This document shows, one piece after another, positions 1,788-48,820 of a stretch of 64,000 bases of DNA (within the stretch, counting starts at the first letter, position 1; every line of letters begins with the position of its first letter). The notes below the pieces were generated by a model. That model ran no database searches. It was not told the DNA's origin and saw only the letters and a list, made by a program, of their open reading frames with translations. The DNA lies in IMG/VR virus record IMGVR_UViG_3300022868_000009, positions 1-64,000 of that record; one strand, 5' to 3'. This DNA comes from a virus. Position numbers and translations under genes: made by a program.

Positions 1788-1802
1788 TTATATATTAAAA
1801 TT
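1788..1802 (-). promoter_or_regulatory. Putative T4-like late promoter
   Basis: On the reverse strand this reads AATTTTAATATATAA. It is the recurrent motif of this window and sits upstream of the gene starting at 1761. No -35 element is apparent. Assignment to the gp55-like sigma factor is inference. Confidence 0.45.
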
Positions 1803-21253: not shown

Positions 21254-22795
21254 ATGAAATATTTAAAAACATACAAATTATTTGAAAACCCTAACCATAT
21301 TTATAAAAATATTAAAGGAGAATGGATTGATTTATCATTCGAAGATGATGATGCAATTCCATTTTTTTATGATATTGAATTAAATACTATATTTTTAGGT
21401 CAATCAAAAATTGATGGTATATACTATATACACCCCGAATTAATACAAATTGTCAATAAACATAGATCACAAAAAGGGTACGCACCATTAAGCATTTATG
21501 ATACAAATCTATTATACTCTGGTAGAATTTGGAAAGGTAGAAAAGTAATATCTTTTTGGTCATATCCAGATAAAGAAATGTTTGACATTATAATAAATAA
21601 ATTAGAAGATAAATCTTCTGTAAGAATATGGGGTAATGATTGGTTAATTGAAGTAGTTATAGGTGATGATAATATATCAATTAAAAATTTACCTTACAAT
21701 TGGAAAGATAACAACGCAATGGAAAAAGGTATAATTAAAATGGTACCTGTTGATGAATATGATAAAAGTGAAAACTTTGATAGAGAAGATCATATTAAAT
21801 CACCATTAAATAAATCTAAAAAACCGACATACTATAAAACATCTAAACACAAACCAAAAAATATCACTAATATTGAATATAAAGGAATGATGAAAAATAT
21901 ATATCAAGAAAGTATATTATCATTTGGAGAATATATTAAAGAAACTCCTGATTATATTTATAATAGAAATACTGAGTGGGAAATGGAATGGTCTGATGAT
22001 GATGCAAGACCTTTTCAATATTTAACTAATGATCTTTTTTCCGGTGAAAAAAGTGGTGAATTTCATTTAGGTAATTATGGCGACAATCATCCAGATATGT
22101 TTCCTTCAGGTGGATTATATTCAGGTAGAATATGGGATGACCCATCAAAACAAATAATATCATTTTGGGATTATCCACCAAATAAAGAAGAATTCAAAAA
22201 AATTATAGATCAATTAGAAAGAAAAACTGGGCATAAGATTTGGAATAAAGATTGGAAAATAGAAGTTTTAGTCGATAAAAACATTAATAGATGGGATATT
22301 GAAGCCGGTGATGATATGACTTCAGATTTAGAATCAATAATAATACCTGTTGTAGATTATACTGGTAGTGAAGACACTCCTAAAGAATTATTAAATATGC
22401 ATTTAAAAGATAAATCTAAACTCAAAGTTCCAACTGGTTTTGGTTCTAAACATAAACATAAATATCAAACAAATCTTGAACCGATTCGTTATAAAAATAT
22501 GATGAAAAATGTATTTACTGAAAATGTAGACACAAAACCAAAAAGAAAGAAGAAAAAAGTAATATACGAAGCAATTATCAATGATATTAAAGGAAATATT
22601 ATATCATATATAACTAATTTTAAAATGACTAAATTAGAAGAAAAGTGGATGACTTGTAATGTAAAAGGATACAAGAAAAAGAAAGTTGAAGGATACAAAA
22701 CTAAAGTTTGGGTTTATTTTGAAGATAAACTTAAATTAAATACAAAATGTTTTAAAAATGGTAAAATAGAATTACTAGTAATAGATGATAAATAA
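21254..22795 (+). CDS. Tagged protein with internally duplicated domain
   Basis: A 513-residue protein beginning MKYLKTYKLFENPNH. Two copies of one undescribed domain (residues about 10-200 and 235-420) share the pattern LYSGRIW-(6-8)-ISFW-YP, (K/R)IW-(N/K)DW-IEV and a closing YK-MMKN segment. Between the copies lies ESILSFGEYIKE, which looks like a second targeting peptide, suggesting in-frame fusion of two adjacent paralogues. The C-terminal 90 residues are Lys-rich. It has no KLGLL tail. It starts on the base after the LRR stop. Confidence 0.75.
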   Translation: MKYLKTYKLFENPNHIYKNIKGEWIDLSFEDDDAIPFFYDIELNTIFLGQSKIDGIYYIHPELIQIVNKHRSQKGYAPLSIYDTNLLYSGRIWKGRKVISFWSYPDKEMFDIIINKLEDKSSVRIWGNDWLIEVVIGDDNISIKNLPYNWKDNNAMEKGIIKMVPVDEYDKSENFDREDHIKSPLNKSKKPTYYKTSKHKPKNITNIEYKGMMKNIYQESILSFGEYIKETPDYIYNRNTEWEMEWSDDDARPFQYLTNDLFSGEKSGEFHLGNYGDNHPDMFPSGGLYSGRIWDDPSKQIISFWDYPPNKEEFKKIIDQLERKTGHKIWNKDWKIEVLVDKNINRWDIEAGDDMTSDLESIIIPVVDYTGSEDTPKELLNMHLKDKSKLKVPTGFGSKHKHKYQTNLEPIRYKNMMKNVFTENVDTKPKRKKKKVIYEAIINDIKGNIISYITNFKMTKLEEKWMTCNVKGYKKKKVEGYKTKVWVYFEDKLKLNTKCFKNGKIELLVIDDK

Positions 22796-23156
22796 ATACG
22801 AAAAATTCATATATGAACGTTTAGGACAGAATGAAGGTGATATTAATATCGTTGGTATTCATGTTAATGATAAAAATCTAGATGTAATACTTGAAGAAAT
22901 ATCAAATTATTTTAACTTGAAAAGCTTTTTAAATGCTGATTTTGTAAGAAAAAGTGCATCTAGAGAATTGTTTTATGTTAATATATATCCAGTCAATAGT
23001 AATTATAATTACTTTTGGAATAGTATAAATGAATATGATAATATCTTTAATGATTTGGATGAACCTAATACATATAAACTAGAAGATTGGTTTGAAAAAT
23101 ACTTAAATGTTACATTAGAAGAATTTGTAGAAGCTAAAAAATTAGGACTATTATAA
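22785..23156 (+). CDS. Small protein (CTS-like head, KLGLL tail)
   Basis: A 123-residue protein starting MINKYEKFIYERLG, similar to a capsid-targeting peptide, and ending EEFVEAKKLGLL. The body is a small alpha/beta domain with no recognised motif. It overlaps the previous gene by 11 bases, closing the forward cassette. It is convergent with the kinase gene, whose stop is the next base. Confidence 0.7.
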   Translation: MINKYEKFIYERLGQNEGDINIVGIHVNDKNLDVILEEISNYFNLKSFLNADFVRKSASRELFYVNIYPVNSNYNYFWNSINEYDNIFNDLDEPNTYKLEDWFEKYLNVTLEEFVEAKKLGLL

Positions 23157-29416: not shown

Positions 29417-29441
29417 GAAAAAAGAGTTAAACACTCTCTAT
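29417..29441 (-). terminator. Terminator overlapping end of thioredoxin gene
   Basis: On the reverse strand AGAGTGTTTAACTCT forms a short hairpin followed by TTTTTT. It overlaps the last codons and stop (29427-29429) of the thioredoxin gene. Confidence 0.6.
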
Positions 29442-29789
29442 TTTTTTGAGTTTTAATGTTTCTATTAGATGCTCAATTTTCGGTTTTGGTAAAAAACCAT
29501 TATAAATTTTAACTTCCCCCTTCATATTAATCATAATCAATGTTGGTAAACTTTTAACACCAAACATTTCAACAAGTTCATATTCATTTTCAGCATCTAC
29601 TTTAAAAAAATCAATTTCAGAGTATTTTATTTCCAATTGTTGTAAAACAACTTGAGTAATTTTACAGGGAGCACACCATTCAGCGTAAAAATCAATAATA
29701 CATGGTTTTGAACCTATAAATTTATAATCTTCATTTTTGCTAATTTCCAAAATTTTTTCTTTTAATTCTATTGCCGTTAAGTTTTTCAT
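29427..29789 (-). CDS. Thioredoxin
   Basis: A 120-residue thioredoxin-fold protein with the redox site FYAEWCAPCKI and the cis-proline segment VKSLPTLIMI. The WCAPC variant replaces the usual WCGPC. It probably supplies reducing power in the cytoplasm, for example to a ribonucleotide reductase. No signal peptide is present. It is monocistronic between two terminator hairpins. Confidence 0.9.
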   Translation of the reverse strand: MKNLTAIELKEKILEISKNEDYKFIGSKPCIIDFYAEWCAPCKITQVVLQQLEIKYSEIDFFKVDAENEYELVEMFGVKSLPTLIMINMKGEVKIYNGFLPKPKIEHLIETLKLKKIESV

Positions 29790-29937: not shown

Positions 29938-30327
29938 TTATTTTTTTATTATTCTCATAACACCTGGTAACCTTATATCAGTATTCAAATACCCTCTTTG
30001 ATTTTTATTTTGTGTAAAAAATATTGTAGCATGTGATTTATATGTTATTAATTCACCATCCATGTTTTTAACTGTTAATTCGTCTTTGCCTTTAGCTATA
30101 TAAATTGGAAAATTAGAAAATCCCCATTTTTTAAATTTCCACATACAATCCCAAGCCTTATATTCTTCTTTATTTTTTGTTTTATAAACTATTATTGAAG
30201 CATCAAATGGATCATCAACTTCTAATAATATAATTGTAGCATCACCTGGATCCATCATATTAATTACAGTTTGACTACAACAAACTAAACTTGTTAATAT
30301 TAATATTAATGTTAATATTTTTTTCAT
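29938..30327 (-). CDS. Predicted secreted protein or lipoprotein
   Basis: A 129-residue protein with an N-terminal signal sequence (MKKILTLILILTSLVCCSQ) containing a possible lipobox Cys at about residue 16. The mature part has no recognised domain. It is last in the operon of exported proteins 29938-34224 and overlaps the preceding gene by four bases. Confidence 0.7.
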   Translation of the reverse strand: MKKILTLILILTSLVCCSQTVINMMDPGDATIILLEVDDPFDASIIVYKTKNKEEYKAWDCMWKFKKWGFSNFPIYIAKGKDELTVKNMDGELITYKSHATIFFTQNKNQRGYLNTDIRLPGVMRIIKK

Positions 30328-30794
30328 CTTATAATAAGTTTCTTTTTATATATTTCGTTCATTGAAGTAGCAATAATAATATATGTACCAGAATTTAATC
30401 TATTCATACAATCACAATCAATTGGTTCTTTTGATTGGAATATTGAATTTAATTCAAAACTACCAGTTATAAATATATTATCATTGTGTATAACTAAACA
30501 CTTCGGATCATCAATATTTGCATCTCCAATTTGATTACACCATATAAACTCTCCATTTTCAGATAACTTTATTAAGGCAATATCCTTATTTCCAAATGAT
30601 GTAAAATTGTTTCCTAATATATTTATTGTGCCATAAAATTCAACAAGAACATATATCGAATTTTCAGAATCAGTGTAAATCGATTCCGATTCAATATTAT
30701 TTGTTCCATTTATTGGTATAGACCATACCCATCTTTGTTGAGAAAAAGATGATATGGATAAGAAAAGTAATAATATGATTAATAAATTTCTCAT
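30324..30794 (-). CDS. Secreted beta-propeller fragment with T9SS-like tail
   Basis: A 156-residue protein with a signal peptide ending near SSFSQ. The segment KDIALIKLSENGEFIW then IGDANIDDPK matches SBBP-type beta-propeller repeats common in secreted Bacteroidota proteins. It ends SGTYIIIATSMNEIYKKKLI, which resembles the end of a type IX secretion sorting domain. It is short compared with host versions, so probably a reduced copy. It overlaps its neighbours by four bases on both sides. Confidence 0.7.
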   Translation of the reverse strand: MRNLLIILLLFLSISSFSQQRWVWSIPINGTNNIESESIYTDSENSIYVLVEFYGTINILGNNFTSFGNKDIALIKLSENGEFIWCNQIGDANIDDPKCLVIHNDNIFITGSFELNSIFQSKEPIDCDCMNRLNSGTYIIIATSMNEIYKKKLIIR

Positions 30795-32122
30795 TCAACT
30801 ATTAATTTAGTTTTATAATAACCATCAATAATAACAATATAAACACCACAAGGTAGTCCATATATTTGATTATCAACAATATTTGCTTTTATGTCTCTAC
30901 CTAATATATCAGTAATTTGAATATTTTGATAAGTACCAGATATATTAATTGATTCATTAGACGAAGCAGGATTAGGATAAAGGTTTAATGAATTATTTTC
31001 ACAATTAACATAAATTGTATTATATGTATTTGTTTTTCCATCATAATCAATTTGTTTTAACCTATAATATCCACCATTAGAATAATCTATATATTTATAG
31101 TTTATAGTTTGGTTACTATTACCATTTCCAGAAACAGTTCCTATTGATGTAAATGATATACCATCAAAACTTTTTTCAATAACAAAATAATCATTGTTAA
31201 TTTCTGATAGTGTTTCCCATTCGATTAAAACGTTATTATTTTTTGTATTACAAATTCCATTAAAAGTTATTAATTCTACAGGTAAAGGCATTATTTCACT
31301 ACCCAAAGTAACTTTTGTCCATGTTAAAGTTGAACCAAATAAATTTTTAGTGATTGGAACATTTGATCCTGTATAATCAATTACTGGTGTCCAATAATCA
31401 GGTCCTCCACCATTCACCCATTGAAACATAATTAATTCAACAGGATTATGTACATTTAATTCTTGAGGATAACAATCATGAAAAGTAACATTTGTTCCTG
31501 CGAATATTGCAGGTGCGTCTATCTGAAAATAACGAAAAACACTGTTATTTCCTGCAAAAGTACCTGTACCAGGTTGAACTAAATGTCCCCGAATAATATT
31601 TACACCTATTCCTGTCAAATTAACTGTTAAACCCAAATTGGAAATATTTCCAACAGGATTATCTCTAATTGCACGAATAGTTCCGGTTCCTAATCCATCA
31701 CTTCCTCCTGCATCTGTTGCTTTAACTCTTCTTGTAGATGCCTCATTGTTAAGTATTCCTGAATAGTTTAAATCAACCAAAGCATCTTTTAAATCAAAAT
31801 CTCCCTGTGTCATTTGTAATATATTGGAAATACTAATATCTCTACCAACATTAACACTAACACCACCTCCTATATTATTTACAGTAACATTATAAAATGC
31901 TGTTGTGTTAGCTCCTAAAATTGATTGATTAACATTACCAATAAAGTGTACTGTGCTGTTTCCAGCTATTACTATACCATTATTAGTCCAATTGCCATTA
32001 CCATCAATTAAAACTTGTACAGTGCTATTCATTACAATTTGCGCACTATTGTTTAATAATCCTTGCGAAAAAAAATTATATGATAATATCAATAATAAGA
32101 CTATAATTTGTATTTTTTTCAT
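30791..32122 (-). CDS. Secreted protein with type IX secretion sorting domain
   Basis: A 443-residue protein. A signal peptide (MKKIQIIVLLLILSYNFFSQ) leads into a beta-rich passenger (residues 25-265). A linker typical of Bacteroidota, LPVELITFNG then VLIEWETLSEINNDYFVIEK, comes next. The last 70 residues (NLYPNPASSNESINIS to GVYIVIIDGYYKTKLIVE) are a type A T9SS sorting domain. The host T9SS would export it to the cell surface or medium. Base composition is visibly richer in G+C than nearby phage genes, suggesting transfer from a host. Confidence 0.88.
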   Translation of the reverse strand: MKKIQIIVLLLILSYNFFSQGLLNNSAQIVMNSTVQVLIDGNGNWTNNGIVIAGNSTVHFIGNVNQSILGANTTAFYNVTVNNIGGGVSVNVGRDISISNILQMTQGDFDLKDALVDLNYSGILNNEASTRRVKATDAGGSDGLGTGTIRAIRDNPVGNISNLGLTVNLTGIGVNIIRGHLVQPGTGTFAGNNSVFRYFQIDAPAIFAGTNVTFHDCYPQELNVHNPVELIMFQWVNGGGPDYWTPVIDYTGSNVPITKNLFGSTLTWTKVTLGSEIMPLPVELITFNGICNTKNNNVLIEWETLSEINNDYFVIEKSFDGISFTSIGTVSGNGNSNQTINYKYIDYSNGGYYRLKQIDYDGKTNTYNTIYVNCENNSLNLYPNPASSNESINISGTYQNIQITDILGRDIKANIVDNQIYGLPCGVYIVIIDGYYKTKLIVE

Positions 32123-33768
32123 TTTCGTATTGGTTTTTTAGTCCCATATTTCCCATTTACAAGTTTATATTTTCCATGATTTGGACCTGCTGGTATTATT
32201 TCTCCAACTCTCACATGGTCTTCTATATTATAATTATATACATCCCAATCTTTTGCCCACCTAAAAATGTCTCTGCGACTAGGTTGATTTTTAGCATTAG
32301 CAGCATCAATATTATATTTTAACCAAGCTGGTCCAGGAGCTTGAACAAATCTTCCTTCACCATAGTTTGTTTTTGGTTTAGCAATAATCTGATAATCAAT
32401 TTCACCACTATTTATGCCTCCATTACGTTCAACAAGATCAAAACCTGTGGCTGATTTGTTAATAACTGCAACACCATTACATTCAAGAATATTAACTTGT
32501 AAAATTACTTTTAATGGATTGTCTGCATCTACAAAAATAATATCTACAAGTATTGGATCAAGTTCTACATGTGATTTGCCATTTACAAGTTGTACTGTTC
32601 CATAATCAACATACCAGTATTCAGGAGATTCAGGACAAGTAAGTGTTATTCTTCCATGATCTTTTGTCGAGATAATTTCACTTACAGCACCAATTCCATA
32701 TATTTTTCTGTTAGTTACTCCGTCATATGCTGTATATGCCCAATATCCGTTTCCTTGTGAATAAGCTCCCGCAGAGTATCCATAACCAGTAGCATAACCG
32801 GCATTTGGATCACTTCCTGCACCAGGACCTGAAGCAGATGTATAAACCCCAATTGCATCTTCATCGCTAGTTGCATATAGCTTAGCTCCTGTAGCACTTG
32901 TATACCATGCAGGTGTAACTCCGCCTGAATATGTGCAATTCCCATGAATTGCTGTATGTATAAATCCACCTTCATTAAGATTTACATTCATTTGCGAGTA
33001 TATTCCAGGCACATCACCATCTAAAACATCATTATCATCGCCATAAAAATATCCAGGAATCCAACAATCAGAATAACCAACAATAGCTGCTATGTTAGCA
33101 TTAAGAGTAGTTTTTCCATATACTGCAATTCTGTTAGGGTCGTTAACTAACCCATGAACAGCGGCACCCCCTACAGTTGAACCTCCAACAGTAATTGACC
33201 CGTTAAATCCTAGATAACCATAAGTTTGATTTCCTGATACATTTGAAAATCCCTGTACTGCACAAGCACCATTAACAGCACTTGTTGTTTCAAAATATCC
33301 TGCAACAGTATTAGTTGAACCAATATATTCAATACCATGTACTTCTCCATCGTCATGAACTTTAATTGCAGTATTATATTCAGGGCGGATATAGTTCATA
33401 CCAGTAGGTCTAATCCAATATTCAACATTTCCTGGAATGTTAGGTAAATTTCCTGAAAACAGCCATTTCCATTTTCCTGAAGCAGTATTCCAATAATAGT
33501 ATCCAGGGATAACATTATTTGGAGCAACTCCAGCCGTAGCAGTATTATAAATAAGTAAAGCATCTGCAGGTGCAGTTATTGGTGATATTGAATTATTTGC
33601 AGTAAGTGTTACACGAGGGATTAAGATCCCTTTGTCTGTTGAACTAATATCTAACATTGCAGATGCATTTGGAGCAACTCCTGTTGAATTTATTGCTACA
33701 TTTTGTGTAAATAACCAAACTGGTAATAAACATAATAATACTATTAAAAAATTTTTTATTTTTTTCAT
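32119..33768 (-). CDS. Large secreted surface or fibre-like protein of Bacteroidota type
   Basis: A 549-residue protein with a signal peptide (MKKIKNFLIVLLCLLPVWLF). The N-terminal motif ASAMLDISSTDKGILIPRVT, then LLIYNTATAG and YYYWNTASGKWKWL, is the hallmark of many Bacteroidota secreted and fibre-like proteins. A Gly-rich beta region follows (200-350). The C-terminal segment KSATGFDLVERNGG then IDYQIIAKPK is typical of the same family. It lacks a T9SS tail itself but is coupled by overlap to a gene that has one. Higher G+C than its neighbours suggests host origin. Confidence 0.8.
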   Translation of the reverse strand: MKKIKNFLIVLLCLLPVWLFTQNVAINSTGVAPNASAMLDISSTDKGILIPRVTLTANNSISPITAPADALLIYNTATAGVAPNNVIPGYYYWNTASGKWKWLFSGNLPNIPGNVEYWIRPTGMNYIRPEYNTAIKVHDDGEVHGIEYIGSTNTVAGYFETTSAVNGACAVQGFSNVSGNQTYGYLGFNGSITVGGSTVGGAAVHGLVNDPNRIAVYGKTTLNANIAAIVGYSDCWIPGYFYGDDNDVLDGDVPGIYSQMNVNLNEGGFIHTAIHGNCTYSGGVTPAWYTSATGAKLYATSDEDAIGVYTSASGPGAGSDPNAGYATGYGYSAGAYSQGNGYWAYTAYDGVTNRKIYGIGAVSEIISTKDHGRITLTCPESPEYWYVDYGTVQLVNGKSHVELDPILVDIIFVDADNPLKVILQVNILECNGVAVINKSATGFDLVERNGGINSGEIDYQIIAKPKTNYGEGRFVQAPGPAWLKYNIDAANAKNQPSRRDIFRWAKDWDVYNYNIEDHVRVGEIIPAGPNHGKYKLVNGKYGTKKPIRK

Positions 33769-33772
33769 ATTT

Positions 33773-33883
33773 TTATTTTACAATTAATTTTATTTTATAA
33801 TATCCATCAATAATAACAATATAAATTCCACTATTTAAACCTTCTATTTGATTATCCATATTTTGTTTTATAAATTTTTTCAT
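33773..33883 (-). pseudogene. Remnant of a T9SS sorting domain
   Basis: A 36-residue frame starting in an ATGA overlap with the gene upstream. Its second half (DNQIEGLNSGIYIVIIDGYY then KIKLIVK) closely repeats the last 28 residues of the protein at 30791-32122 (DNQIYGLPCGVYIVIIDGYY). It is probably the remains of a duplicated, largely deleted T9SS cargo gene, though a small translated peptide cannot be excluded. Confidence 0.65.
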
Positions 33884-34224
33884 TCTTTTTTGTTTTTCAT
33901 TTTTTCTTTAATATACATATCTTTACAATTTTTATAATTTATTATATTATCTATATTAGATTTATAATAACATTTACCATAAAAACGCATTTCAATTTTT
34001 TTAAATAATACATTGTAATCTTTGTGATTTTTTGTTAATTTTACAAAAATTAAATATTCTGCTTCACAGGTTGATATTACTTTACAACCCAAAGATTTTA
34101 CATATATTATAACTTCTTGGAAATCATTATCATCGGATACATATCCAAATAGGCAATGATTTTCTTTTTGACTAAATGCCAAAGTTGAAATCATCATAAA
34201 TAAGTAAATTAGGAATTTTTTCAT
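33880..34224 (-). CDS. Small secreted protein
   Basis: A 114-residue protein with a signal peptide (MKKFLIYLFMMISTLAFSQ, cleavage after FSQ). The mature part has four Cys and is Lys/Tyr-rich; no family is recognised. It is first in the exported-protein operon that runs down to 29938. Confidence 0.7.
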   Translation of the reverse strand: MKKFLIYLFMMISTLAFSQKENHCLFGYVSDDNDFQEVIIYVKSLGCKVISTCEAEYLIFVKLTKNHKDYNVLFKKIEMRFYGKCYYKSNIDNIINYKNCKDMYIKEKMKNKKE

Positions 34225-34553: not shown

Positions 34554-35232
34554 TTAATGTAAAAGTTCAATCTTACCCTTAATTATATTTTTATAACTCG
34601 ATTTACTATTAGTAATATGATCAACAATTATACCAGTTTTTAAATTATAAGTCCTTCTTCTATTTGACCTAGATCTTAAACCTATTTGTTCATTTCTACC
34701 ATTAGAATAAGACTCATTATATTCTTTATTAAATTTATCTTGTAATCTTTTCTTTAATTCTTTCCACGCACCAGATTCATTTTTATGTTGATTTCTACCA
34801 TCAACTCTTACTTGAATATTAGTAGGGATATGTTTTAAAATAACACAACTCATAGTTCTATTTCTATGTTGACCGCCCGGTCCAGAACCCATAGTATATA
34901 TTACTTCTACATCATTTTTATCAATATTAACTGAAATATCTTGTTTTTCATCTAAAACTGCAACAGAAACTGTTGATGTGTGCATTCTACCTTTTGATTC
35001 TGTTGGTGGTACACGTTGCCATTTATGATTACCTATTTCATTTGAGAAGAATTCTTTTACACCATCACCGCTAAAGACATAAATCAACTAAACCTTCTCT
35101 TTCATTAAGAGAAATTAGTTTAAATCCCTTTAACTTTAATGTTTTTAAGTAAATGTTTTTCATATCTTGTACTAGAAGTTTAGCATCCTCGCCACCTTCT
35201 TGATCTCTGATTTCTATAATAATTTTTTCCAT
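34554..35232 (-). CDS. RF1-like peptide chain release factor with +1 frameshift
   Basis: Two overlapping frames make one factor. Frame 1 (ATG 35232, stop TAG 35071-35073) encodes the PCRF segment IIEIRDQEGGEDAKLLVQDM then GFKLISLNE. Frame 2 (to 34554) continues SGDGVKEFF, WQRVPPTESKGRMHTS, GSGPGGQHRNR (the GGQ loop) and RRRTYNLKTG. PPT matches the RF1-type PxT codon-recognition motif. The junction reads CTT TAG C, the RF1 counterpart of the CTT TGA C site of bacterial prfB. A +1 slip there would yield about 225 residues, lacking the N-terminal part of domain 1 (RF1 has about 360). Upstream frame-2 reading is blocked by a TAG before its TTG. Confidence 0.85.
35070..35076 (-). promoter_or_regulatory. 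Putative programmed +1 frameshift site CTTTAGC
   Basis: On the reverse strand the last sense codon CTT is followed by TAG and C. Slipping one base gives TTT in the P site and AGC next, which enters the downstream frame at SGDGV. A weak purine-rich stretch (GAGAAGG) lies about 20 bases upstream. Confidence 0.7.
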
Positions 35233-35921: not shown

Positions 35922-35982
35922 TATAATAATTATATTTTCTTCTATATATTAAAATACATATTGATAAATTTTATAATTATGT

Positions 35983-36054
35983 AACGCAGATCAGAATCGA
36001 ACTGACAGCCTTTGGGATATGATTCCAATGCTCTACCTATTGAGCTACTGCGTT
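35983..36054 (-). tRNA. tRNA-Met(CAT)
   Basis: Acceptor AACGCAG pairs with CTGCGTT. The D arm is GCTC-GAGC and the anticodon loop ATCATAT gives CAT. The T arm is GTCAG-TTCGATT-CTGAT. CCA is not encoded. Whether it acts as elongator, initiator or lysidine-modified Ile tRNA cannot be told from sequence. Confidence 0.9.
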
Positions 36055-36385
36055 ATTTATTTTTAATTCTATCTAATTTAATCTTTCGATCAATTCTTAT
36101 AATTTTCTTTTTAACTTCTTCATCTTTAAAATTTGGATGTAAATATAAATTACACATAACATGGAAAACATCTGGATTTATATCACCATTTTCATCTAAA
36201 CATGGTTTTAATATATCCATCATTATATATGTTCTAATAGATGTATAATTATTTTGAAATTCATAACGTTTACAAATAAAATCTATATAACTATCAACAT
36301 CAACAGGTATTATTTTATTCTCAAATTCGTCAATTAAAACATCAATTATATATTCATCATTAAAACCATTACTATCATCCGTCAT
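36053..36385 (-). CDS. Hypothetical acidic protein
   Basis: A 110-residue protein (MTDDSNGFNDEYIID onward), predicted helical, with a basic C-terminus (RKIKLDRIKNK). No motif is recognised. Its stop touches the 5' end of the tRNA-Met gene, so both may lie on one transcript. Confidence 0.6.
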   Translation of the reverse strand: MTDDSNGFNDEYIIDVLIDEFENKIIPVDVDSYIDFICKRYEFQNNYTSIRTYIMMDILKPCLDENGDINPDVFHVMCNLYLHPNFKDEEVKKKIIRIDRKIKLDRIKNK

Positions 36386-36494
36386 CCTTTACTCTACTAA
36401 TTTAACTTTTCTTTGATACTGGTATTAAAATTCTACTATTTTCCATATAACTTATATTTCAAATAATATAATATGTTTAAAAATTTTGTATTTA

Positions 36495-36531
36495 AAAAGA
36501 ACCGTATCAATAATAAATTAATACGGTTTCA
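36495..36531 (-). terminator. Terminator after 36568-36759
   Basis: GAACCGTAT and ATACGGTTTC form a nine-base stem with a 13-base loop. On the reverse strand it is followed by a U-rich tract (TTCTTTTTAAAT). Confidence 0.7.
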
Positions 36532-36567
36532 GTAGAGGGTAACTAATATAATTGGTAAGATAAAAAA

Positions 36568-36759
36568 CTATTCTTGTTCCTTTTTAGCTTTAAGGTTACC
36601 CTTAGTTTTTCCTTTTACTTCTTTTTCTTTCTTGTCTGGTCTAACTAATTCTTTCCAGATGTTTTTAGGACAATAATTATATCCGTTTGCTAACTTTTCA
36701 TAAACTTCCTTTTCTTTTACTCTAATTGGAAGGTCGTCTCCGAGTCTCATTGTTTTCAT
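36568..36759 (-). CDS. Small Lys-rich protein
   Basis: A 63-residue protein: an N-terminal part with RLGDDLPIRVKEKEV and NIWKELVRPDK, then a Lys-rich disordered tail. Unknown function. It ends before a terminator. Confidence 0.55.
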   Translation of the reverse strand: MKTMRLGDDLPIRVKEKEVYEKLANGYNYCPKNIWKELVRPDKKEKEVKGKTKGNLKAKKEQE

Positions 36760-36767
36760 AAGCTAAT

Positions 36768-37277
36768 TTAATTAATTTTTATAATATTTGATTTTTCTAT
36801 TTTTATTGATTTTTCTATTTTTAATTTTTCTATTGGTTTTTCTTTTTTAATATTATTAAAATCTATAACCTTCAATGTTATAGTATCTGTTTTTTGTTTA
36901 AATGTAAATTCATGCTCACCTTTACCATAATGGTTTATTTTTACAAATAAATTAAAAACTGTATTTTCATTAATTTGTCTAGATTCATTTACTTTAAAAA
37001 TATATTTAATTTGTTTACCATCAAACTCATATTCAGCATAAAAATCTTTGTTTTTAGAATCAAGATAAACTACAGGTTTAATTTCACCATCATATGCAAC
37101 AAATTCATTTATATCTGCAAATGGACCAACAATTGCAAAACCAACAATAAATATAACTATTGATGCAAATACACACCATGCTTTCGTTAAAGATTTTTTA
37201 GAAAATATTGATAATAAAATAAATATCATTAATAATCCAGGACTAATTATCCATGCAAGTGTTAATAGTAAACTCAT
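36768..37277 (-). CDS. Membrane protein with external domain
   Basis: A 169-residue protein with two N-terminal transmembrane helices (residues 3-25 and 32-52, ending GFAIVGPFAD). A beta-rich domain follows (VVYLDSKNKDFYAEYEFDGK), then a Lys/Ile repeat tail. No family is recognised. An envelope location is predicted. Confidence 0.65.
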   Translation of the reverse strand: MSLLLTLAWIISPGLLMIFILLSIFSKKSLTKAWCVFASIVIFIVGFAIVGPFADINEFVAYDGEIKPVVYLDSKNKDFYAEYEFDGKQIKYIFKVNESRQINENTVFNLFVKINHYGKGEHEFTFKQKTDTITLKVIDFNNIKKEKPIEKLKIEKSIKIEKSNIIKIN

Positions 37278-37355
37278 TTTTTATATTTTTTTAATTTGTA
37301 TAAATATACAAAAATTTCAACTTAAAAAAAATTTTCGATTCTAAATTTTAATTGT

Positions 37356-37427
37356 AGGTATAGATGGATTTGAACCACCGACTTCTACTGTATAAGAGTA
37401 GCACTCTGACCCCTGAGTTATATACCC
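37356..37427 (-). tRNA. tRNA-Ile(TAT)
   Basis: Acceptor GGGTATA/TATACCT. Anticodon stem CTACT/AGTAG, loop CTTATAC giving TAT, which reads the AUA codon frequent in this AT-rich genome. The T loop is TTCAAAT. Its 5' end overlaps the last codons of the gene at 37418-37804. Confidence 0.85.
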
Positions 37428-37804
37428 ATGTCTAATCGTTTAAAAATTTTCCTTTCAATTGTTTCTATCATATAATTAGAATAAAAAAACAAATCGTACA
37501 TATTCTTTACCTCTTTTACATTATAATAATCACTATATTCATATATTTGATAAGTGATGCCTGTACCTGTTTTATAGGATGATGTATAACATATATATTC
37601 TTTATTTTTGTATTTTTTATATCTTACACTATGCAACGTGTTTATTATATAACCATTTTTAATATTTTTATAAACACTTTTAACATTTTTAATATTTTTA
37701 AAATCAAACTCATTAAATATACGTTGAAAAGCATGCTTAGGACTTAAAACCTTATTTTTTTCAAAATAATGTTCAAAACCAATTTGATATTTGTTTTTTC
37801 TCAT
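37418..37804 (-). CDS. Hypothetical Lys/Tyr-rich protein
   Basis: A 128-residue basic protein (MRKNKYQIGFEHYFEKNK onward) with no recognised motif. Its 3' end overlaps the 5' end of tRNA-Ile(TAT) by ten bases. Confidence 0.6.
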   Translation of the reverse strand: MRKNKYQIGFEHYFEKNKVLSPKHAFQRIFNEFDFKNIKNVKSVYKNIKNGYIINTLHSVRYKKYKNKEYICYTSSYKTGTGITYQIYEYSDYYNVKEVKNMYDLFFYSNYMIETIERKIFKRLDMGI

Positions 37805-37842
37805 ATTATTTTTGTATGTTTACGACAAAGTTTTCAATACTT

Positions 37843-37924
37843 AATATCTGATTCGAACCTACGTTGGGGCGTTTACCTCATCAGATTAACAGTCTGACAC
37901 CTTCGACCACTCGGACACAGATCA
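37843..37924 (-). tRNA. Degenerate class II tRNA, Tyr-like body with GTT anticodon
   Basis: The D arm TGTCCGAGTGG and a long variable arm indicate class II. Anticodon stem TCAGA/TCTGA with loop CTGTTAA gives GTT (Asn). A typical bacterial tRNA-Tyr has the same arm with loop CTGTAAA (GTA). The 3' side of the T stem is missing, so the T stem does not close and the acceptor pairs over only five bases. Probably a decayed tRNA. Confidence 0.55.
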
Positions 37925-37932
37925 ATTTATTA

Positions 37933-38646
37933 TTACACAATTTCCGATTTTATTGCATTTGGTGGAATATTATCATAAGTATAATATGCTTCAGAATCTT
38001 CGTTAAACTTTGGATCTTTATGTAATTTAATATTATTAATCATCACTTTCATATCTATTTCTAGAATAATATATTCTTCCTTAGAATGAAATTCTTTTTC
38101 TTCTAAGTAATTTTTAGATATTTTTTCATTTCCAAATAAATAAATTCTTTCTGGATGTTGTTCAATAACGTTTTTAGTTTTAGGAACTATACCTTGTTTT
38201 TTAATTTTATCTAAATTTTTTTTATTTGTAACATGATATAATTTTTCTGGTACACCAACTTCAGAATCAAATCTTTTATTTAAATAAACTATGAAATCTT
38301 CATCTTTTTTCCAAACATGTGTTGAAATACTTGTTTTTTTACCATCCATATACTGGTTTGAAATATTATAACCTAAATTATTTACCAAAATCAATAAATC
38401 AGAATAAAATTCTTTTAATCTTTCTCCATAAAAATTAAGTTCAATTCTATCTTTAAGAATATATAATTTGACACTACCTTTTACTTTATGTTTTTTAAGC
38501 AAATCGTCGATTTTTTGAACTGATATATCATAATCAATACTTTTAATAAGACCCTCTTTAATTAAATTATAATTGAAAGACTCTAACATTTTATTATTAA
38601 AGTCATGATGATATCCACAAAATTCAAAATATTTTTTCATATTCAT
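37933..38646 (-). CDS. Putative ADP-ribosyltransferase-fold protein
   Basis: A 237-residue protein. The C-terminal half contains LYHVTNKKNLDKIKKQGI then ERIYLF and a distant EAYYTYDNIPP, a pattern recalling DarT/KptA-like ADP-ribosyltransferases (His in YHxT, Gly-hydrophobic after Ile-rich helix). The protein at 54608-55393 has the same pattern. Both contain LIKEGLI near the N-terminus; here it follows ESFNYN, suggesting a capsid-targeting peptide ending in I-K-E. T4 Alt is a packaged ADP-ribosyltransferase, so an injected enzyme is plausible. Catalytic Glu is not certain. Confidence 0.6.
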   Translation of the reverse strand: MNMKKYFEFCGYHHDFNNKMLESFNYNLIKEGLIKSIDYDISVQKIDDLLKKHKVKGSVKLYILKDRIELNFYGERLKEFYSDLLILVNNLGYNISNQYMDGKKTSISTHVWKKDEDFIVYLNKRFDSEVGVPEKLYHVTNKKNLDKIKKQGIVPKTKNVIEQHPERIYLFGNEKISKNYLEEKEFHSKEEYIILEIDMKVMINNIKLHKDPKFNEDSEAYYTYDNIPPNAIKSEIV

Positions 38647-38658
38647 TATATATTAAAT
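38645..38658 (-). promoter_or_regulatory. Putative late promoter
   Basis: Reverse-strand reading TGAATTTAATATATAA begins just upstream of the ATG at 38646. Spacing is too short for that ATG, so it may instead mark an internal start or be coincidental. Confidence 0.2.
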
Positions 38659-38677
38659 TCATTTTTTTGTTTATTTG

Positions 38678-38750
38678 AGGGGAAACTAGGACTCGAACCT
38701 AGGACACCTTGATTAACAATCAAGTACTCTACCAACTGAGTTATATCCCC
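38678..38750 (-). tRNA. tRNA-Asn(GTT)
   Basis: Acceptor GGGGATA/TTTCCCC with one mismatch, D arm ACTC-GAGT, anticodon stem CTTGA/TCAAG with loop TTGTTAA giving GTT, and T arm CTAGG-TTCGAGT-CCTAG. Confidence 0.9.
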
Positions 38751-38831
38751 TGGTATAGGGCTAAAACCACTACCCTATCTTTGAAAGTTTACAAATCTAC
38801 CTGTGGTTAGGTCATAGAACTGCTCCTACAG

Positions 38832-38903
38832 TAGTCCGTAGGGGAATCGAACCCCTCTCTCTGGGCTGAAAACCCAACGTCCTGCGCAATAGACGAACGG
38901 ACC
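38832..38903 (-). tRNA. tRNA-Glu(TTC)
   Basis: Acceptor GGTCCGT/ACGGACT. Anticodon stem TTGGG/CCCAG with loop TTTTCAG giving TTC. T arm GGGG-TTCGATT-CCCC. Confidence 0.85.
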
Positions 38904-38915
38904 ATAAATTACATG

Positions 38916-38997
38916 TAGCGGGTCTAGGAGTCGAACCTAGTATCTCGTGGGTTATGAGCCCAGAATGATTTATAATTATCCATTTCACTCCCCCGCA
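38916..38997 (-). tRNA. tRNA-Met(CAT) with enlarged D loop
   Basis: Acceptor TGCGGGG/ACCCGCT pairs over its central five bases. The anticodon loop CTCATAA gives CAT. T arm CTAGG-TTCGACT-CCTAG. The D region AGTGA-(loop)-TCATT has a loop of about 15 bases instead of 7-11. Confidence 0.75.
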
Positions 38998-39043
38998 ATA
39001 TAATTTCAATCTTTAAAAATTTATCAATATGTCAAAGAACTTG

Positions 39044-39117
39044 TGGGTATAGATGGATTCGAACCATCGACCTCTACCGTATCAGAGTAGCACTCTAACC
39101 AACTGAGCTATACACCC
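39044..39117 (-). tRNA. tRNA-Ile(GAT)
   Basis: Acceptor GGGTGTA/TATACCC, D arm GCTC-GAGT, anticodon loop CTGATAC giving GAT, T arm GATGG-TTCGAAT-CCATC. It closely resembles the Ile(TAT) gene at 37356, which suggests duplication with an anticodon change. Confidence 0.92.
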
Positions 39118-39118
39118 G

Positions 39119-39836
39119 TTATAATTTCAACCATTTTCTTATTGAATTATCACTAACACCATATTTTTTACCTACCTGTACATAATTACTTTCTTGAATT
39201 TCTTTCAATAAAATTTCTTTATTAGGTCTTTCTACTTTTCTGCTTTTTTCATGATAACATTCTACACATTGTTTTGATTGTCTTCATTTCATTACCACAT
39301 TCACAATAGTATTTTTTCTTTTCTTTTTTTTGATATTTTTGATATTTCTCTTTTTTTAAATCAGATTTATTAGATTTTGTTTTACTTTTACCACAATATG
39401 TGCTTGTCTGGCTATGACAATTTGGACATAATAATCTAAGATTTTCTAATCTATTATCTAAGTTATCACCATTTATATGGTCCAAATGTAAAGATATAGA
39501 TTTTCTTTTCCATTCATTTATTCCACATTCATCACATTTATATTCTAAAATATCTTCTTCAATAAGACGTTTTTTCAAAGAACCATTATTAGTATAAGTT
39601 GAATTTTCAACTAATATTTCATCCAACGAATAAGTTTTTGAAAAATTCTTAAAATTTTCACCTGTATTCCAACCTTGTCCTGTAAAATGTGATTTATCAA
39701 TATTATATAATTTAACATATTTTTTAATTGTTTTATAATTTCCACCTACTGGTCTTATGTCTAATTTTCTACAAACATCAGCAATTGAAAATGATTCTTT
39801 TACTATTTTCTCTAAATTATCTTTTTCATATTTCAT
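39119..39836 (-). pseudogene. HNH homing endonuclease, C-terminus frameshifted
   Basis: The open frame from ATG 39836 encodes 195 residues. The N-terminal segment is KYEKDNLEKIVKES, followed by the HNH core (CDECGINEW, LHLDHINGDNLDNRLENLRL, CPNCH) and CECGNEMKTIKT, then a premature stop at 39249. Sequence down to 39119 in another frame encodes the missing tail: CVECYHEK, RKVERPNKE and KYGVSDNSIRKWLK, as in the paralogues at 40659 and 41591. Restoring two bases in the TGTG run near 39262 rejoins the frames as MCVEC. The loss removes the DNA-recognition helix-turn-helix. Confidence 0.8.
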
Positions 39837-39853
39837 ATTAATATTTATTTTAT

Positions 39854-39868
39854 ATTATATATTAAAAC
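39854..39868 (-). promoter_or_regulatory. Putative late promoter of first HNH gene
   Basis: Reverse-strand reading TTTTAATATATAA lies 18-32 bases upstream of the ATG at 39836. Confidence 0.4.
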
Positions 39869-39931
39869 TTAAAAGCTATATTTTTTAATGTAAATATACG
39901 TTTGATATATTTATATTAACTAAAAATAGTG

Positions 39932-40016
39932 TACCTGGAATGGGACTCGAACCCATACGACCATAAAGATCAATAGATTTTAAGTCTATCTCGGCTACCA
40001 ATTACGACACCCAGGC
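39932..40016 (-). tRNA. tRNA-Leu(TAA)
   Basis: Class II tRNA: acceptor GCCTGGG/TCCAGGT, anticodon stem ATAGA/TCTAT, loop CTTAAAA giving TAA. Long variable arm (GATCTTTATGGTC) and T arm ATGGG-TTCGAGT-CCCAT are intact. Confidence 0.9.
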
Positions 40017-40039
40017 ATTTGTGTCTTATTTTATCATTA

Positions 40040-40210
40040 TTAACGAATCCTTTTATAATTCATTCTTTCTTTTTTACCTTTTCTTTCTCTAATCAAATCG
40101 TGTTCAATTTCAATAGCGAATTTTAAGTATAACCACATATCTGAATTAGGTCTTTGTTTACTCATACCTAATCTATATTTAATTATTTTATTTCTAGTTT
40201 TTTTATTCAT
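40040..40210 (-). CDS. 56-residue basic protein within tRNA cluster
   Basis: ATG at 40210 opens MNKKTRNKIIKYRLGMSK and ends in a basic tail (KGKKERMNYKRIR). It lies between two tRNA-Leu genes. The composition suggests nucleic-acid binding. The start has an A-rich leader. Confidence 0.55.
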   Translation of the reverse strand: MNKKTRNKIIKYRLGMSKQRPNSDMWLYLKFAIEIEHDLIRERKGKKERMNYKRIR

Positions 40211-40235
40211 TTCTTTCCTTTCTTATATTTATTTG

Positions 40236-40315
40236 TACCTCTGGAGAGACTCGAACTCTCACACCTTTCGGCACTGGTGCCTAAAACCAGCGTGTCTACA
40301 TTCCACCACAGAGGC
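40236..40315 (-). tRNA. tRNA-Leu(TAG)
   Basis: Class II tRNA: acceptor GCCTCTG/CAGAGGT, anticodon stem CTGGT/ACCAG, loop TTTAGGC giving TAG (reads CUA). Variable arm TGCCGAAAGGTG and T arm GAGAG-TTCGAGT-CTCTC are intact. It is a Leu tRNA, not a stop suppressor. Confidence 0.9.
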
Positions 40316-40323
40316 ATATTTAA

Positions 40324-40355
40324 TAAAAAAGCCAGTTCTTTATTTTGAACTGGCT
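40324..40355 (-). terminator. Terminator or attenuator hairpin in tRNA cluster
   Basis: AGCCAGTTC and GAACTGGCT pair with an eight-base loop and are followed by six Us on the reverse strand. Its upstream arm can instead pair with the end of a mini open frame at 40377-40421. Confidence 0.75.
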
Positions 40356-40376
40356 CTATAATTTAACAATAGTATA

Positions 40377-40421
40377 TTAGAGCCAGTCCCAGATTTCCTC
40401 TAGTAATAAATTAATAATCAT
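40377..40421 (-). CDS. 14-residue mini open frame (possible leader peptide)
   Basis: The frame encodes MIINLLLEEIWDWL, with two Trp codons close to the stop. Its 3' end (GACTGGCTCTA) can pair with TAGAGCCAGTT in the following hairpin. A related mini frame with IFDW at its end lies at 42641-42730. Translation is not proven. Confidence 0.35.
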   Translation of the reverse strand: MIINLLLEEIWDWL

Positions 40422-40474
40422 ATTTATATTTATATTCAACATTTTTGTACTTTTTATTTTATTTTATTTTTTAG

Positions 40475-40546
40475 AGGCTCCGACTGAATTCGAATCAGTG
40501 TATCTAGTTTTGCAGACTAGTGCCTTAACCACTCGGCCACGGAGCC
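40475..40546 (-). tRNA. tRNA-Cys(GCA)
   Basis: Acceptor GGCTCCG/CGGAGCC is perfect. Anticodon stem CTAGT/ACTAG, loop CTGCAAA giving GCA. T loop TTCGAAT, with T stem CTGA/TCAG. Confidence 0.92.
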
Positions 40547-40557
40547 ATTATTTTTTG

Positions 40558-40652
40558 TGGGAGCCGAGGGACTCGAACCCCCCTACCGCAAAGTCCATTA
40601 CGACAATTTGTTGACGCGGATCGGTTTTACAGACCGATGCCGTTAGACTCCC
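40558..40652 (-). tRNA. tRNA-Tyr(GTA) lacking a D arm, with long variable region
   Basis: Acceptor GGGAGTC/GGCTCCC. Anticodon stem TCGGT/ACCGA, loop CTGTAAA giving GTA. T arm GGGGG-TTCGAGT-CCCTC. Only eight bases separate the acceptor and anticodon stems, so no D arm can form. The variable region is about 37 bases, with CCGC/GCGG closing an insert that contains GTCGTAATGGAC. Confidence 0.65.
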
Positions 40653-40658
40653 AAACTT

Positions 40659-41354
40659 TTACGACTTATTTTTTATTGTATTTTCATAAGTTTTTAACCA
40701 TTTTCTTATAGCATTATCACTAACACCATATTTTCTTCCAGTAGCAGAATAACCTACTCTTTTTATTTCTATTTTTAATTTTTCATAAGAAGGTCTTTCA
40801 ACTTTCCTGTTGTTTTTTGCTGAACATTTCACACACATTTTTGAATTTTTATGTATTTCATTACCACATTCACAATAATTTTTTTCTTTTTTCTTTTTTC
40901 TATTTTTACCAGCATGTGTATCTAATGTTGCATTACAATTAGGACATACAATCCTCAAATTTTCTATTTTATTATCATCATAAACACCATTCTTGTGATC
41001 CAAAATTAAACTCATTTTTTTACCATTCCATATTTCATCTTGTCCACATATTTCACATTTTCTTTCTTTTAAACCTTCATCATATAATCTTTCTTTTAAA
41101 TGTGTTCTACTAAATGTAGAATTTTCAACTAATATTTTTTCTAATGGTGTCTTATTTTTAGTTGATAAATATTTAATTTTATCATAACATTTAGTAAAAT
41201 GTGTTATATCCAAATCATACAACTCAATATATTTTTTCAATGTTTTAGGGTTACCACCAGCATTTCTTATTCCTAATTTTTCTAAACACTCTTTTTGTGT
41301 TTTAGATGTCTTAACTATTTCTTCAAGATTTTCTTTTGTCCATTTTAATTTCAT
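40659..41354 (-). CDS. HNH homing endonuclease, intact copy
   Basis: A 231-residue protein, one of three related genes in the tRNA cluster. It opens with KLKWTKENLEEIVKTSKTQK, an N-terminal helix-turn-helix-like region. The HNH core follows: CEICGQDEIW, LILDHKNGVYDDNKIENLRI, VCPNCNATLDTH. Then come CECGNE and MCVKC zinc pairs and a C-terminal module KYGVSDNAIRKWLKTYE that probably reads DNA. It sits between tRNA-Tyr and tRNA-Gln, a common target for homing genes. Confidence 0.85.
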   Translation of the reverse strand: MKLKWTKENLEEIVKTSKTQKECLEKLGIRNAGGNPKTLKKYIELYDLDITHFTKCYDKIKYLSTKNKTPLEKILVENSTFSRTHLKERLYDEGLKERKCEICGQDEIWNGKKMSLILDHKNGVYDDNKIENLRIVCPNCNATLDTHAGKNRKKKKEKNYCECGNEIHKNSKMCVKCSAKNNRKVERPSYEKLKIEIKRVGYSATGRKYGVSDNAIRKWLKTYENTIKNKS

Positions 41355-41369
41355 AAAAAAAAGTTTTCT

Positions 41370-41384
41370 TTTATATATTAAATC
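41370..41384 (-). promoter_or_regulatory. Putative late promoter of second HNH gene
   Basis: Reverse-strand reading GATTTAATATATAAA lies 16-30 bases upstream of the ATG at 41354. Confidence 0.4.
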
Positions 41385-41414
41385 TCGAACCTCGTTTTTT
41401 CATTTTTTCATTTG

Positions 41415-41485
41415 TTGTCCCCAAAGGATTTAAACCCTTACCACAACCTTCAAAAGGTTATGTGCTATCATTACACCAGAGGACA
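41415..41485 (-). tRNA. tRNA-Gln(TTG)
   Basis: Acceptor TGTCCTC/GGGGACA. Anticodon stem TAACC/GGTTG, loop TTTTGAA giving TTG. The T loop is TTTAAAT, which differs from the usual TTCRANT but has an intact stem. Confidence 0.85.
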
Positions 41486-41512
41486 AAATATAATCTAAAA
41501 CTTATTTTCTAG

Positions 41513-41583
41513 CAGTCCATGGGAGATTCGAACTCCAACCTTTGCCGTGAAAAGCTGTAGTGCTACCATTACACCATGGGGCT
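41513..41583 (-). tRNA. Degenerate tRNA-like sequence, TTC anticodon (Glu?)
   Basis: It has a tRNA-like D region (GGTGTAATGGTAGCAC) and T loop (GGAG-TTCGAAT-CTCC). The acceptor arms fit only if one extra C is bulged in the 5' strand, and the anticodon stem (CTACAGC versus GGCAAAG) does not pair well. It is probably a decaying tRNA; an intact tRNA-Glu(TTC) lies at 38832. Confidence 0.45.
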
Positions 41584-41590
41584 AATTATT

Positions 41591-42286
41591 CTAAATCTTT
41601 TCGTATTGTTTTTTCCATTTCCTAATAGCATTATCACTAACACCATACTTTCTTCCTACACCACAATAACCTAATTCAACTATTTCTTTTATCAATTCTT
41701 TATATGTTGGTCTTTCTATTTTTCTCTGACTCTTAGATACACATTCTCTACATTTAATAGCAGATTTAGTAATCTCATTTCCACATTCACAATAATATTT
41801 CTTTTTCTCCGTAACGTAATTATATTTACTATTTCCAATATTCTTACCACCGTGTGTTTCTAAACCAGCATTACAATTTGGACAAACAATTCTAAGATTT
41901 TCTATTCTATTATCATTATTTACACCGTTTTTATGATCTAATATTAAACTGATTTTTACATCATTCCATTCTTCACCTTGATTACACAACTCACATTTTC
42001 TTTCTTTTAACCCTTCTTTGTATAATCTATCTTTTAAATTAGTTGTATAAGTATACGTCGAATTTTCTACTAATATTTCTTTTGTTTTTATTTTAGTAAA
42101 ATTACCACCATTACTATGAAACTTAAAATGTGTTATATCTAAATTATAAGTTTTAATATATTTTTTAATAGTTTGCCTATTTCCATAATATGGTTTTAAT
42201 CCTAAATTTCTAGCAACATCTGATAAATTACCAGATTCAGAAACTATTTTACTAAAATACTCTTTTTCATATCTATTTGTTTTCAT
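41591..42286 (-). CDS. HNH homing endonuclease, third copy
   Basis: A 231-residue paralogue of 40659-41354. Features in order: YEKEYFSKIVSESGNLSDVA at the N-terminus, CELCNQGEEW, LILDHKNGVNNDNRIENLRI, VCPNCNAGLETHGGKN, CECGNE, CRECV and KYGVSDNAIRKWKKQYE at the C-terminus. All zinc and HNH residues appear intact. It lies between a degenerate tRNA and tRNA-Asp, consistent with insertion near tRNA genes. Confidence 0.85.
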   Translation of the reverse strand: MKTNRYEKEYFSKIVSESGNLSDVARNLGLKPYYGNRQTIKKYIKTYNLDITHFKFHSNGGNFTKIKTKEILVENSTYTYTTNLKDRLYKEGLKERKCELCNQGEEWNDVKISLILDHKNGVNNDNRIENLRIVCPNCNAGLETHGGKNIGNSKYNYVTEKKKYYCECGNEITKSAIKCRECVSKSQRKIERPTYKELIKEIVELGYCGVGRKYGVSDNAIRKWKKQYEKI

Positions 42287-42297
42287 AAGATTTTATT

Positions 42298-42312
42298 TTT
42301 ATATATTAAAAT
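42298..42312 (-). promoter_or_regulatory. Putative late promoter of third HNH gene
   Basis: Reverse-strand reading ATTTTAATATATAAA lies 12-26 bases upstream of the ATG at 42286. Confidence 0.4.
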
Positions 42313-42365
42313 CTTCGAACCCAAATTCAAATTAACCAACATTTCAATGAACCTTTATTTTCTTG

Positions 42366-42442
42366 CGGTCCCTACGGGATTCGAACCCGTCTGTTTTTCC
42401 TGAGTGACAGTCAGGTGGCCACGCCAAGCAACCCCAGAGACC
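42366..42442 (-). tRNA. tRNA-Asp(GTC)
   Basis: Acceptor GGTCTCT/AGGGACC. Anticodon stem CCTGA/TCAGG, loop CTGTCAC giving GTC. T arm ACGGG-TTCGAAT-CCCGT. Confidence 0.92.
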
Positions 42443-45627: not shown

Positions 45628-45965
45628 TTTTCTATGTAATTAAGTTTTTTTTCTTTGGGTTCTAATATATCTTCTGTAAATTGAAGTTCCTTTTCTGAAA
45701 AATATTCAGATTCTGTACTATTTGTAATAGTATCACCAGTATATAAATAATTATATACCTGTTTATCAACCATAAATATTCTAATAGTAGTTGGTGTTTT
45801 AATTGTTACTTGATATACTAATGAATCTTTTGAAATATCATGATAATTATATTCATAATCTATAATAACACCAGCTGGTAATTCATCTATACAAACTTTT
45901 CTAATATCTCTTACACATGACATTAATAAAAAGACTGATAATATTAATATTATATATTTTTTCAT
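45624..45965 (-). CDS. Predicted lipoprotein
   Basis: A 113-residue protein with a lipoprotein signal (ILSVFLLMSC, Cys at residue 17). The mature part is beta-rich (VIIDYEYNYHD onward). No family is recognised. It overlaps genes on both sides by four bases, so it is part of a compact operon. Confidence 0.7.
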   Translation of the reverse strand: MKKYIILILSVFLLMSCVRDIRKVCIDELPAGVIIDYEYNYHDISKDSLVYQVTIKTPTTIRIFMVDKQVYNYLYTGDTITNSTESEYFSEKELQFTEDILEPKEKKLNYIEK

Positions 45966-48565: not shown

Positions 48566-48570
48566 ATTTA

Positions 48571-48816: not shown

Positions 48817-48820
48817 GTTT

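Follow-up and report, generated by a model that had tools for sequence, protein, structure and literature searches.

A predicted type IX secretion cargo operon with Bacteroidales-type genes in a huge T4-type phage genome

We examined bases 1-64000 (hereafter the window) of the 344,634-base IMG/VR record IMGVR_UViG_3300022868_000009, and observed that the minus strand carries, at 29938-34224, an operon encoding, in this order, P5, a 36-aa open reading frame (ORF), P4, P3, P2 and P1. It is likely that a huge T4-type phage related to the Mahaphages, infecting Bacteroidota with a type IX secretion system (T9SS), maintains this operon as resident cargo; the encoded proteins would be exported and would give infected cells a remodelled surface. 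We read from the sequence the operon itself, the signal-like N-termini, a sorting tail, a gene pair shared with host chromosomes, codon adaptation, and sorting tails in related phages. From these we infer export, a partnership of P4 with P3, and a benefit to the phage.

Coupled genes with signal-peptide-like starts

The genes of the operon are joined by ATGA overlaps at four junctions (33880/33883, 32119/32122, 30791/30794 and 30324/30327). The N-termini of P1-P5 have one or two basic residues, a hydrophobic stretch, and then an end of the ..SQ/..TQ type (FSQ/FTQ/CSQ). Using a simple heuristic rule, and not SignalP, signal-peptide-like starts were called in 11 of the 144 ORFs in the first 120 kb of the record. 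The five such genes of the operon formed the longest run among these ORFs (p=0.0003 in shuffles). A preliminary description of this DNA had reported five coupled genes in a row with signal peptides, and by this rule we observed the same. It had also placed the operon at 29938-33883. The start at 29938 stands; however, 33883 marks the start codon of the 36-aa ORF, which has no signal peptide, and the fifth gene is P5 (33880-34224, 114 aa), the first gene of the operon, which belongs to no known family.

P3 carries a type A sorting tail

P3 (443 aa, 30791-32122, minus strand) has a signal-peptide-like start, a host-type body, an LPVEL linker, an Fn3-like domain and a type A T9SS sorting tail (YPNP ... 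PCGVYIV ... KTKLIVE, 30794-30982). The tail exceeded both curated cut-offs (TIGR04183, 28.9 bits against a cut-off of 23; PF18962, 27.4 bits against a cut-off of 27), and hmmscan with other cuts of P3 gave lower values for PF18962 (24.6 bits, or no listing). The PxGxYVV-type motif defined in PMC5445135 is present near the C-terminus as PCGVYIV. An alignment of the tail of P3 with those of its host homologues matched T9SS C-terminal domains of known structure (8GLJ, 8GLK and gingipain R2 in the PDB); the phage tail alone matched 8GLJ and 8GLK at only E 0.13-0.17. P3 is thus probably a type A T9SS cargo, with its export as a prediction, and the full type A domain and LPVEL linker that had been assigned to one gene were both confirmed.

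According to PMC12618676, proteins with type A tails depend on PorV and end up statically anchored or released, whereas SprB is directed to the gliding track by its type B tail. No type B sorting domain (TIGR04131, found on gliding cargo partnered with PorP/SprF) was detected in P1-P5 in the NCBIfam scan. The suggestion that the phage would use the gliding machinery was therefore not supported, since the tail of P3 is of the PorV-dependent type A.

P4 and P3 resemble a chromosomal gene pair of Bacteroidales

P4 (549 aa, 32119-33768, minus strand) has a signal-peptide-like start and an N-terminal domain of Bacteroidales type (SAMLDISSTDKGILIPR); it is a homologue of host genes and ends without a T9SS tail. 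A full-length relative (E 1e-162) is borne by a contig of a Bacteroidales metagenome-assembled genome. When we searched 295 Bacteroidales genomes, relatives of P4 were found in 110 (many of the matches covering the N-terminal domain only) and relatives of P3 in 106 (often covering the LPVEL region only). The two are adjacent, in the phage order, in G034, G148, G150 and G130. In G034 they show 58% (P4) and 46% (P3) identity to the phage proteins, and the genes are one or two bases apart. One gene lies between them in G169, and their order is reversed in G255. SprA was present in all six of the Bacteroidales genomes with the pair that were tested for it, PorV was present in all six that were tested for PorV, and neither was found in the phages tested. 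In the trees, phage P4 was sister to G034 (99/97) and phage P3 was sister to G128/G162 (99/96).

The contig itself is that of a phage, as it encodes on the minus strand a T4-type (Gp23) major capsid protein (3566-5329), a prohead protease (5467-7902; PHROG head maturation protease, 1.3e-29, with Peptidase_S77 below cut-off) and a T4-type portal protein (Gp20, 9798-11513). Across 89% of its length, the portal shares 62.5% identity with its counterpart in the 735-kb phage LR756501; with the portals of three phages of 634-642 kb the identity is 50-51%. Judged by this portal comparison alone, the contig appears related to the Mahaphages, the clade that holds all the largest phages of PMC7162821, in which Bacteroidetes hosts were predicted for five phages above 634 kb. 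As these relatives are far larger (634-735 kb), the 344,634-base record may be incomplete. With these hallmarks on the contig, and with the chromosomal homologues found by the search that the preliminary description had proposed, its claim of host-type exported proteins inside a phage genome was upheld.

We considered whether P4 and P3 might be virion parts (fibre or decoration proteins) that merely look host-like. The repeated, beta-rich bodies of the host relatives of P4 recall fibres in our reading, and there was a very weak match to a PHROG tail protein (E 0.022). Foldseek searches of P3 against the PDB gave only generic Fn3/Ig matches with low TM-scores, and the weak matches include a phage minor tail protein and tail tips. 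The AlphaFold2 model of P4 had a pLDDT of 38 and was not used. However, signal-peptide-like starts and a T9SS tail do not fit assembly in the cytoplasm, the homologues are chromosomal genes of Bacteroidales, and the operon is about 20 kb away from the capsid and portal genes. We consider a virion role very unlikely.

The genes have phage-like silent sites

The operon had been described as richer in G+C than the phage genes. From codon statistics of the first 120 kb of the record, this is so for P4 (35.2%, i.e. 0.352, against 24.9 +/- 3.0% in the phage) and slightly so for P3 (0.282), while the rest of the operon is not raised. The composition is not foreign, however, since GC3 is 0.131 in P4 and 0.108 in P3 as compared to 0.138 +/- 0.033 in the phage, and the host loci compared have a GC3 of 0.19-0.33. 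A foreign codon usage of P4 and P3 could therefore be ruled out. The G+C excess of P4 is at codon positions 1 and 2, and the phage capsid gene (0.359) has the same pattern. As the GC3 is phage-like, the high G+C stems from the amino-acid make-up. If the GC3 of the donor was like that of the hosts, a GC3 at the phage mean, with GC1, GC2 and the reading frames kept, would in turn mean that the genes have long resided in the phage under purifying selection. This argues for the P4-P3 pair being an old, selected resident of the phage and not an assembly chimera.

An assembly chimera or contamination, in which the phage contig had taken in a fragment of a host chromosome, would account for the host-type core genes and the GC-rich P4, and also for a second phage contig with P4 not having been found. 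Against this, the GC3 of the operon is phage-like and unlike that of any compared host locus, and the operon and its flanking genes are alike in silent-site composition. Further T9SS and DUF6150 genes are present elsewhere in the record, and related huge phages have T9SS tails. A chimera is, in our estimate, extremely improbable.

Tail remnants and the remaining genes of the operon

The 36-aa ORF (33771-33883, minus strand), which is ATGA-coupled to P5, encodes what remains of a T9SS tail and has neither a cargo part nor a signal peptide. An 87-nt stretch of its DNA (33770-33856) repeats the end of P3 (30788-30874) with 80% identity, and the simplest reading of this tail-only ORF is that a cargo gene was lost or exchanged. 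P2 (156 aa, 30324-30794, minus strand) has a signal-peptide-like start, an SBBP-like propeller piece and the last third of a T9SS tail. The tail scored 14.9 bits over profile positions 47-72 only, which is below the sorting-domain cut-off. P2 may still be exported, because the last 22 tail residues are reported to be enough for secretion in P. gingivalis (review PMC5445135), and its C-terminus, SGTYIIIATSMNEIYKKKLIIR, has 22 residues. The preliminary description had counted two T9SS tails, one of them at the end of a propeller gene. The SBBP-like propeller was recovered and P3 does have a full tail, but in P2 the tail match is confined to the final ~25 positions of the profile, so that besides P3 there are one truncated tail and one tail-only remnant. 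Together, the tail-only ORF and the half-tail of P2 indicate, at the level of sequence, that cargo bodies of the operon were deleted or exchanged.

The same half-tail and tail-only ORF (33771-33883) would also be expected if the operon were neutral baggage, i.e. host genes acquired by chance and now decaying. However, P4 and P3 are open, with their amino-acid composition kept and their silent sites at phage equilibrium, and T9SS cargo recurs in many phages. We regard neutral baggage as unlikely.

P1 (129 aa, 29938-30327, minus strand) has a signal-peptide-like start and a weak match to DUF6150, below cut-off; no phage relatives of P1 were found. A full-length, secreted-type protein of this family (129 bits) is encoded on the plus strand at G000:111206-111535, and had no relative in the INPHARED phages. 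For P1-P5, the family scans found no enzyme domains, no BACON domain was found, and 0 families of PADLOC-DB were matched.

T9SS cargo recurs in other phages

A LamG protein encoded at 84091-85020 of the same record also bears a T9SS tail, as a second cargo of this kind. One or more tails over cut-off were found in each of LR756500, LR756501, LR756502, LR756504 and LR745206, and none in Lak-B5, Lak-A2 and phage PAU. This sample is biased, since four of the five tail-bearing phages were first reached by similarity to P3, and LR756501 alone by its portal. The related huge phages are without P4 and have other cargo instead. A search of IMG/VR for the P3 family gave at least 270 confirmed stretches from 592 candidates, most of them matching the LPVEL domain. 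As T9SS cargo is widespread in huge phages and IMG/VR contigs, sorting tails in contigs from viral metagenomes should not by themselves be taken as a sign of host contamination.

We also evaluated the ORF ends in 80 kept loci (86 LPVEL-type ORFs) among the matches listed. A signal-peptide-like start was present in 73 of the 86 ORFs, and a YPNP-type tail in only 13. Most of the others end in a conserved stretch of ~40 residues, LGQEVDxxxKGxxIxIYxDGSxxKxxR, seen in IMG/VR loci such as L078, L097, L101, L111, L128, L139 and L153, on which the standard T9SS tail models are silent. A model of this short tail (A3) matched 16 of 32 phage records and two of 395 Bacteroidota genomes, one of the two matches being clearly chromosomal. 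The matches in G689, G696, G706, G709 and LR745206 were outside the set from which the model was built and are no evident near-copies of it. Profile comparison gave no support for this stretch being a type A domain that has been shortened (probability 4%), and no PDB match to it was found.

It is possible, though we hold it as a doubtful generalization, that large phages infecting environmental Bacteroidota carry T9SS cargo as a rule, with rotating cassettes of surface proteins behind sorting tails, many having their own short tail. If true, these bacteria would owe many of their surface proteins to phages, a source so far unrecognised.

A proposed route to the cell surface

In the resident cargo operon that we propose, the core of P4 and P3 would derive from the stop/start-coupled gene pair of Bacteroidales chromosomes. 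During infection, Sec would move the operon proteins over the inner membrane, and the SprA translocon and PorV shuttle of the host would take P3 by means of its type A tail, so that P3 ends anchored on the surface or released. The tailless P4 would most likely be exported with P3 or act as its partner. The outcome would be a remodelled surface, and the phage probably alters the outside of the infected cell in this manner. As for the benefit, our first guess, a tentative one, is that the cell is shielded against other phages; a second guess, which we consider weaker, is a change in adhesion or aggregation. The preliminary description had already named phage blocking and altered adhesion as possible effects, and both are plausible.

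The cargo could instead act away from the cell, as released binding or degrading proteins that aid the infected host in feeding or competition. Type A tails can give release into the medium (PMC12618676), and endoglucanase and glycoside hydrolase proteins are among the T9SS cargo of Cryophage (PMC7468147). The lack of enzyme domains among the family matches of P1-P5 speaks against this, and the Fn3-like and propeller domains point to structural or binding roles. Such a role is rather improbable in our judgement.

Several points weigh against a surface-remodelling cargo operon. The signal peptides were called with a simple rule, and export and expression are predictions only. SprA and PorV were seen in Bacteroidales that bear the homologues, and their presence in the actual host of the phage is a prediction. 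P4 has no T9SS tail, and the decayed look of P2 and the 36-aa ORF raises the possibility that the operon is partly dying. P4 and P3 are each near host sequences, but the different nearest relatives in the two trees do not establish one joint capture. Finally, no second phage with P4 emerged: no relatives were found in IMG/VR with the protein or a seven-sequence alignment or in INPHARED, and no exact 31-mers of P4 turned up elsewhere in IMG/VR, records very close to the window possibly lying outside these searches.

Relation to known systems

That phages encode T9SS cargo, and that such cargo might serve superinfection exclusion, was already published for Cryophage (Bellas et al. 2020, PMC7468147); superinfection exclusion by the present operon is a guess. 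As here, Cryophage encodes proteins with type A sorting domains that are thought to use the host system. The cargo of Cryophage differs between phage variants. It consists of endoglucanase, GH39 and PA14 proteins, whereas the present operon is a coupled, multi-gene unit with a host-chromosome pair and tail remnants in a huge Mahaphage-related genome. The crAss-like BACON phages (de Jonge et al. 2019, PMC6949934) are likewise Bacteroidetes phages with T9SS sorting-domain proteins; these, however, lie near head genes and have BACON repeats, and none such was found here. The Bacteroidales pair (G034, G148, G150, G130) has the same proteins, order and coupling, mostly with a signal-peptide-like start and with a T9SS-type end on P3, but unlike the phage pair it sits among chromosomal genes. 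The Mahaphages (Al-Shayeb et al. 2020, PMC7162821) share a related portal and have predicted Bacteroidetes hosts. That study noted predicted host-surface proteins that may affect infection by other phages; secretion is unmentioned in its main text, and the T9SS tails of those genomes were found in the present analysis.

As far as our searches show, the new elements are the coupled host-type pair and its apparent long residence in a phage, the putative relics of cargo exchange, the repeated occurrence among huge phages, and the family of short tails. The question of why phages carry proteins addressed to the host T9SS becomes testable, as the intact Bacteroidales relatives of P4 and P3 allow a comparison of phage and host.

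Borders of the operon and other features of the record

Terminator-like hairpins lie on both sides of the operon, on the minus strand: a strong one after P1 (29855-29915, z -7.0, with a T-run on the plus-strand side) and an AT-rich one with a T-run before P5 (34320-34375, z -3.6). The flanking genes, also on the minus strand, are a phage-type RF-1-type gene (34554-35087) and a thioredoxin gene (29427-29789). Contig L169, a relative, has homologues of these two (61% for RF-1-type and 39% for thioredoxin) directly next to each other, in opposite orientation, whereas in the window the cargo operon lies between them. A late-promoter motif, TATAAATA, upstream of P5 was rejected as too uninformative (9 sites near starts against 4.1 expected), and sigma-70-like sites were not above shuffles.

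A cargo hot spot behind the RF-1 gene was also considered and is unproven, as the arrangement was present in the window and LR745206 and absent in LR756501, LR756502 and LR756504. In LR745206.1 (about 41.5-47.8 kb; L194 5523-11753), as in the window, a second cluster of signal-peptide-like genes lies behind an RF-1-type gene. It includes an ORF with an LPVEL domain, which overlaps the preceding ORF as if frameshifted, and a protein with a weak T9SS tail.

Ten tRNA genes form an array in the window (35981-42442), and seven more form a second array in a GC-richer stretch near 113-116 kb (L005 12615-15600; G000 about 112.6-115.6 kb). Four small putative lipoproteins with a signal peptide and a lipobox cysteine, three of them consecutive, are encoded on the minus strand of the window (45624-45965 and 47939-49198). 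A paralogous family of ORFs of about 525-603 aa, starting like MILTKxxxVKV and ending like YDSGxLKFxY, is scattered over both strands (window 1788-3440 and 8010-9752; G000:93117-94694, 95580-97226 and 100168-101979) and is seen in LR756504 too. An N-terminus like MKYLKTYE recurs in many ORFs that are otherwise unrelated (window 989-1761, 13101-13586, 21254-23156, 52377-53423 and others), and several have a C-terminus like NAxKLGLL; these common ends are possibly a capsid-targeting or prohead signal.

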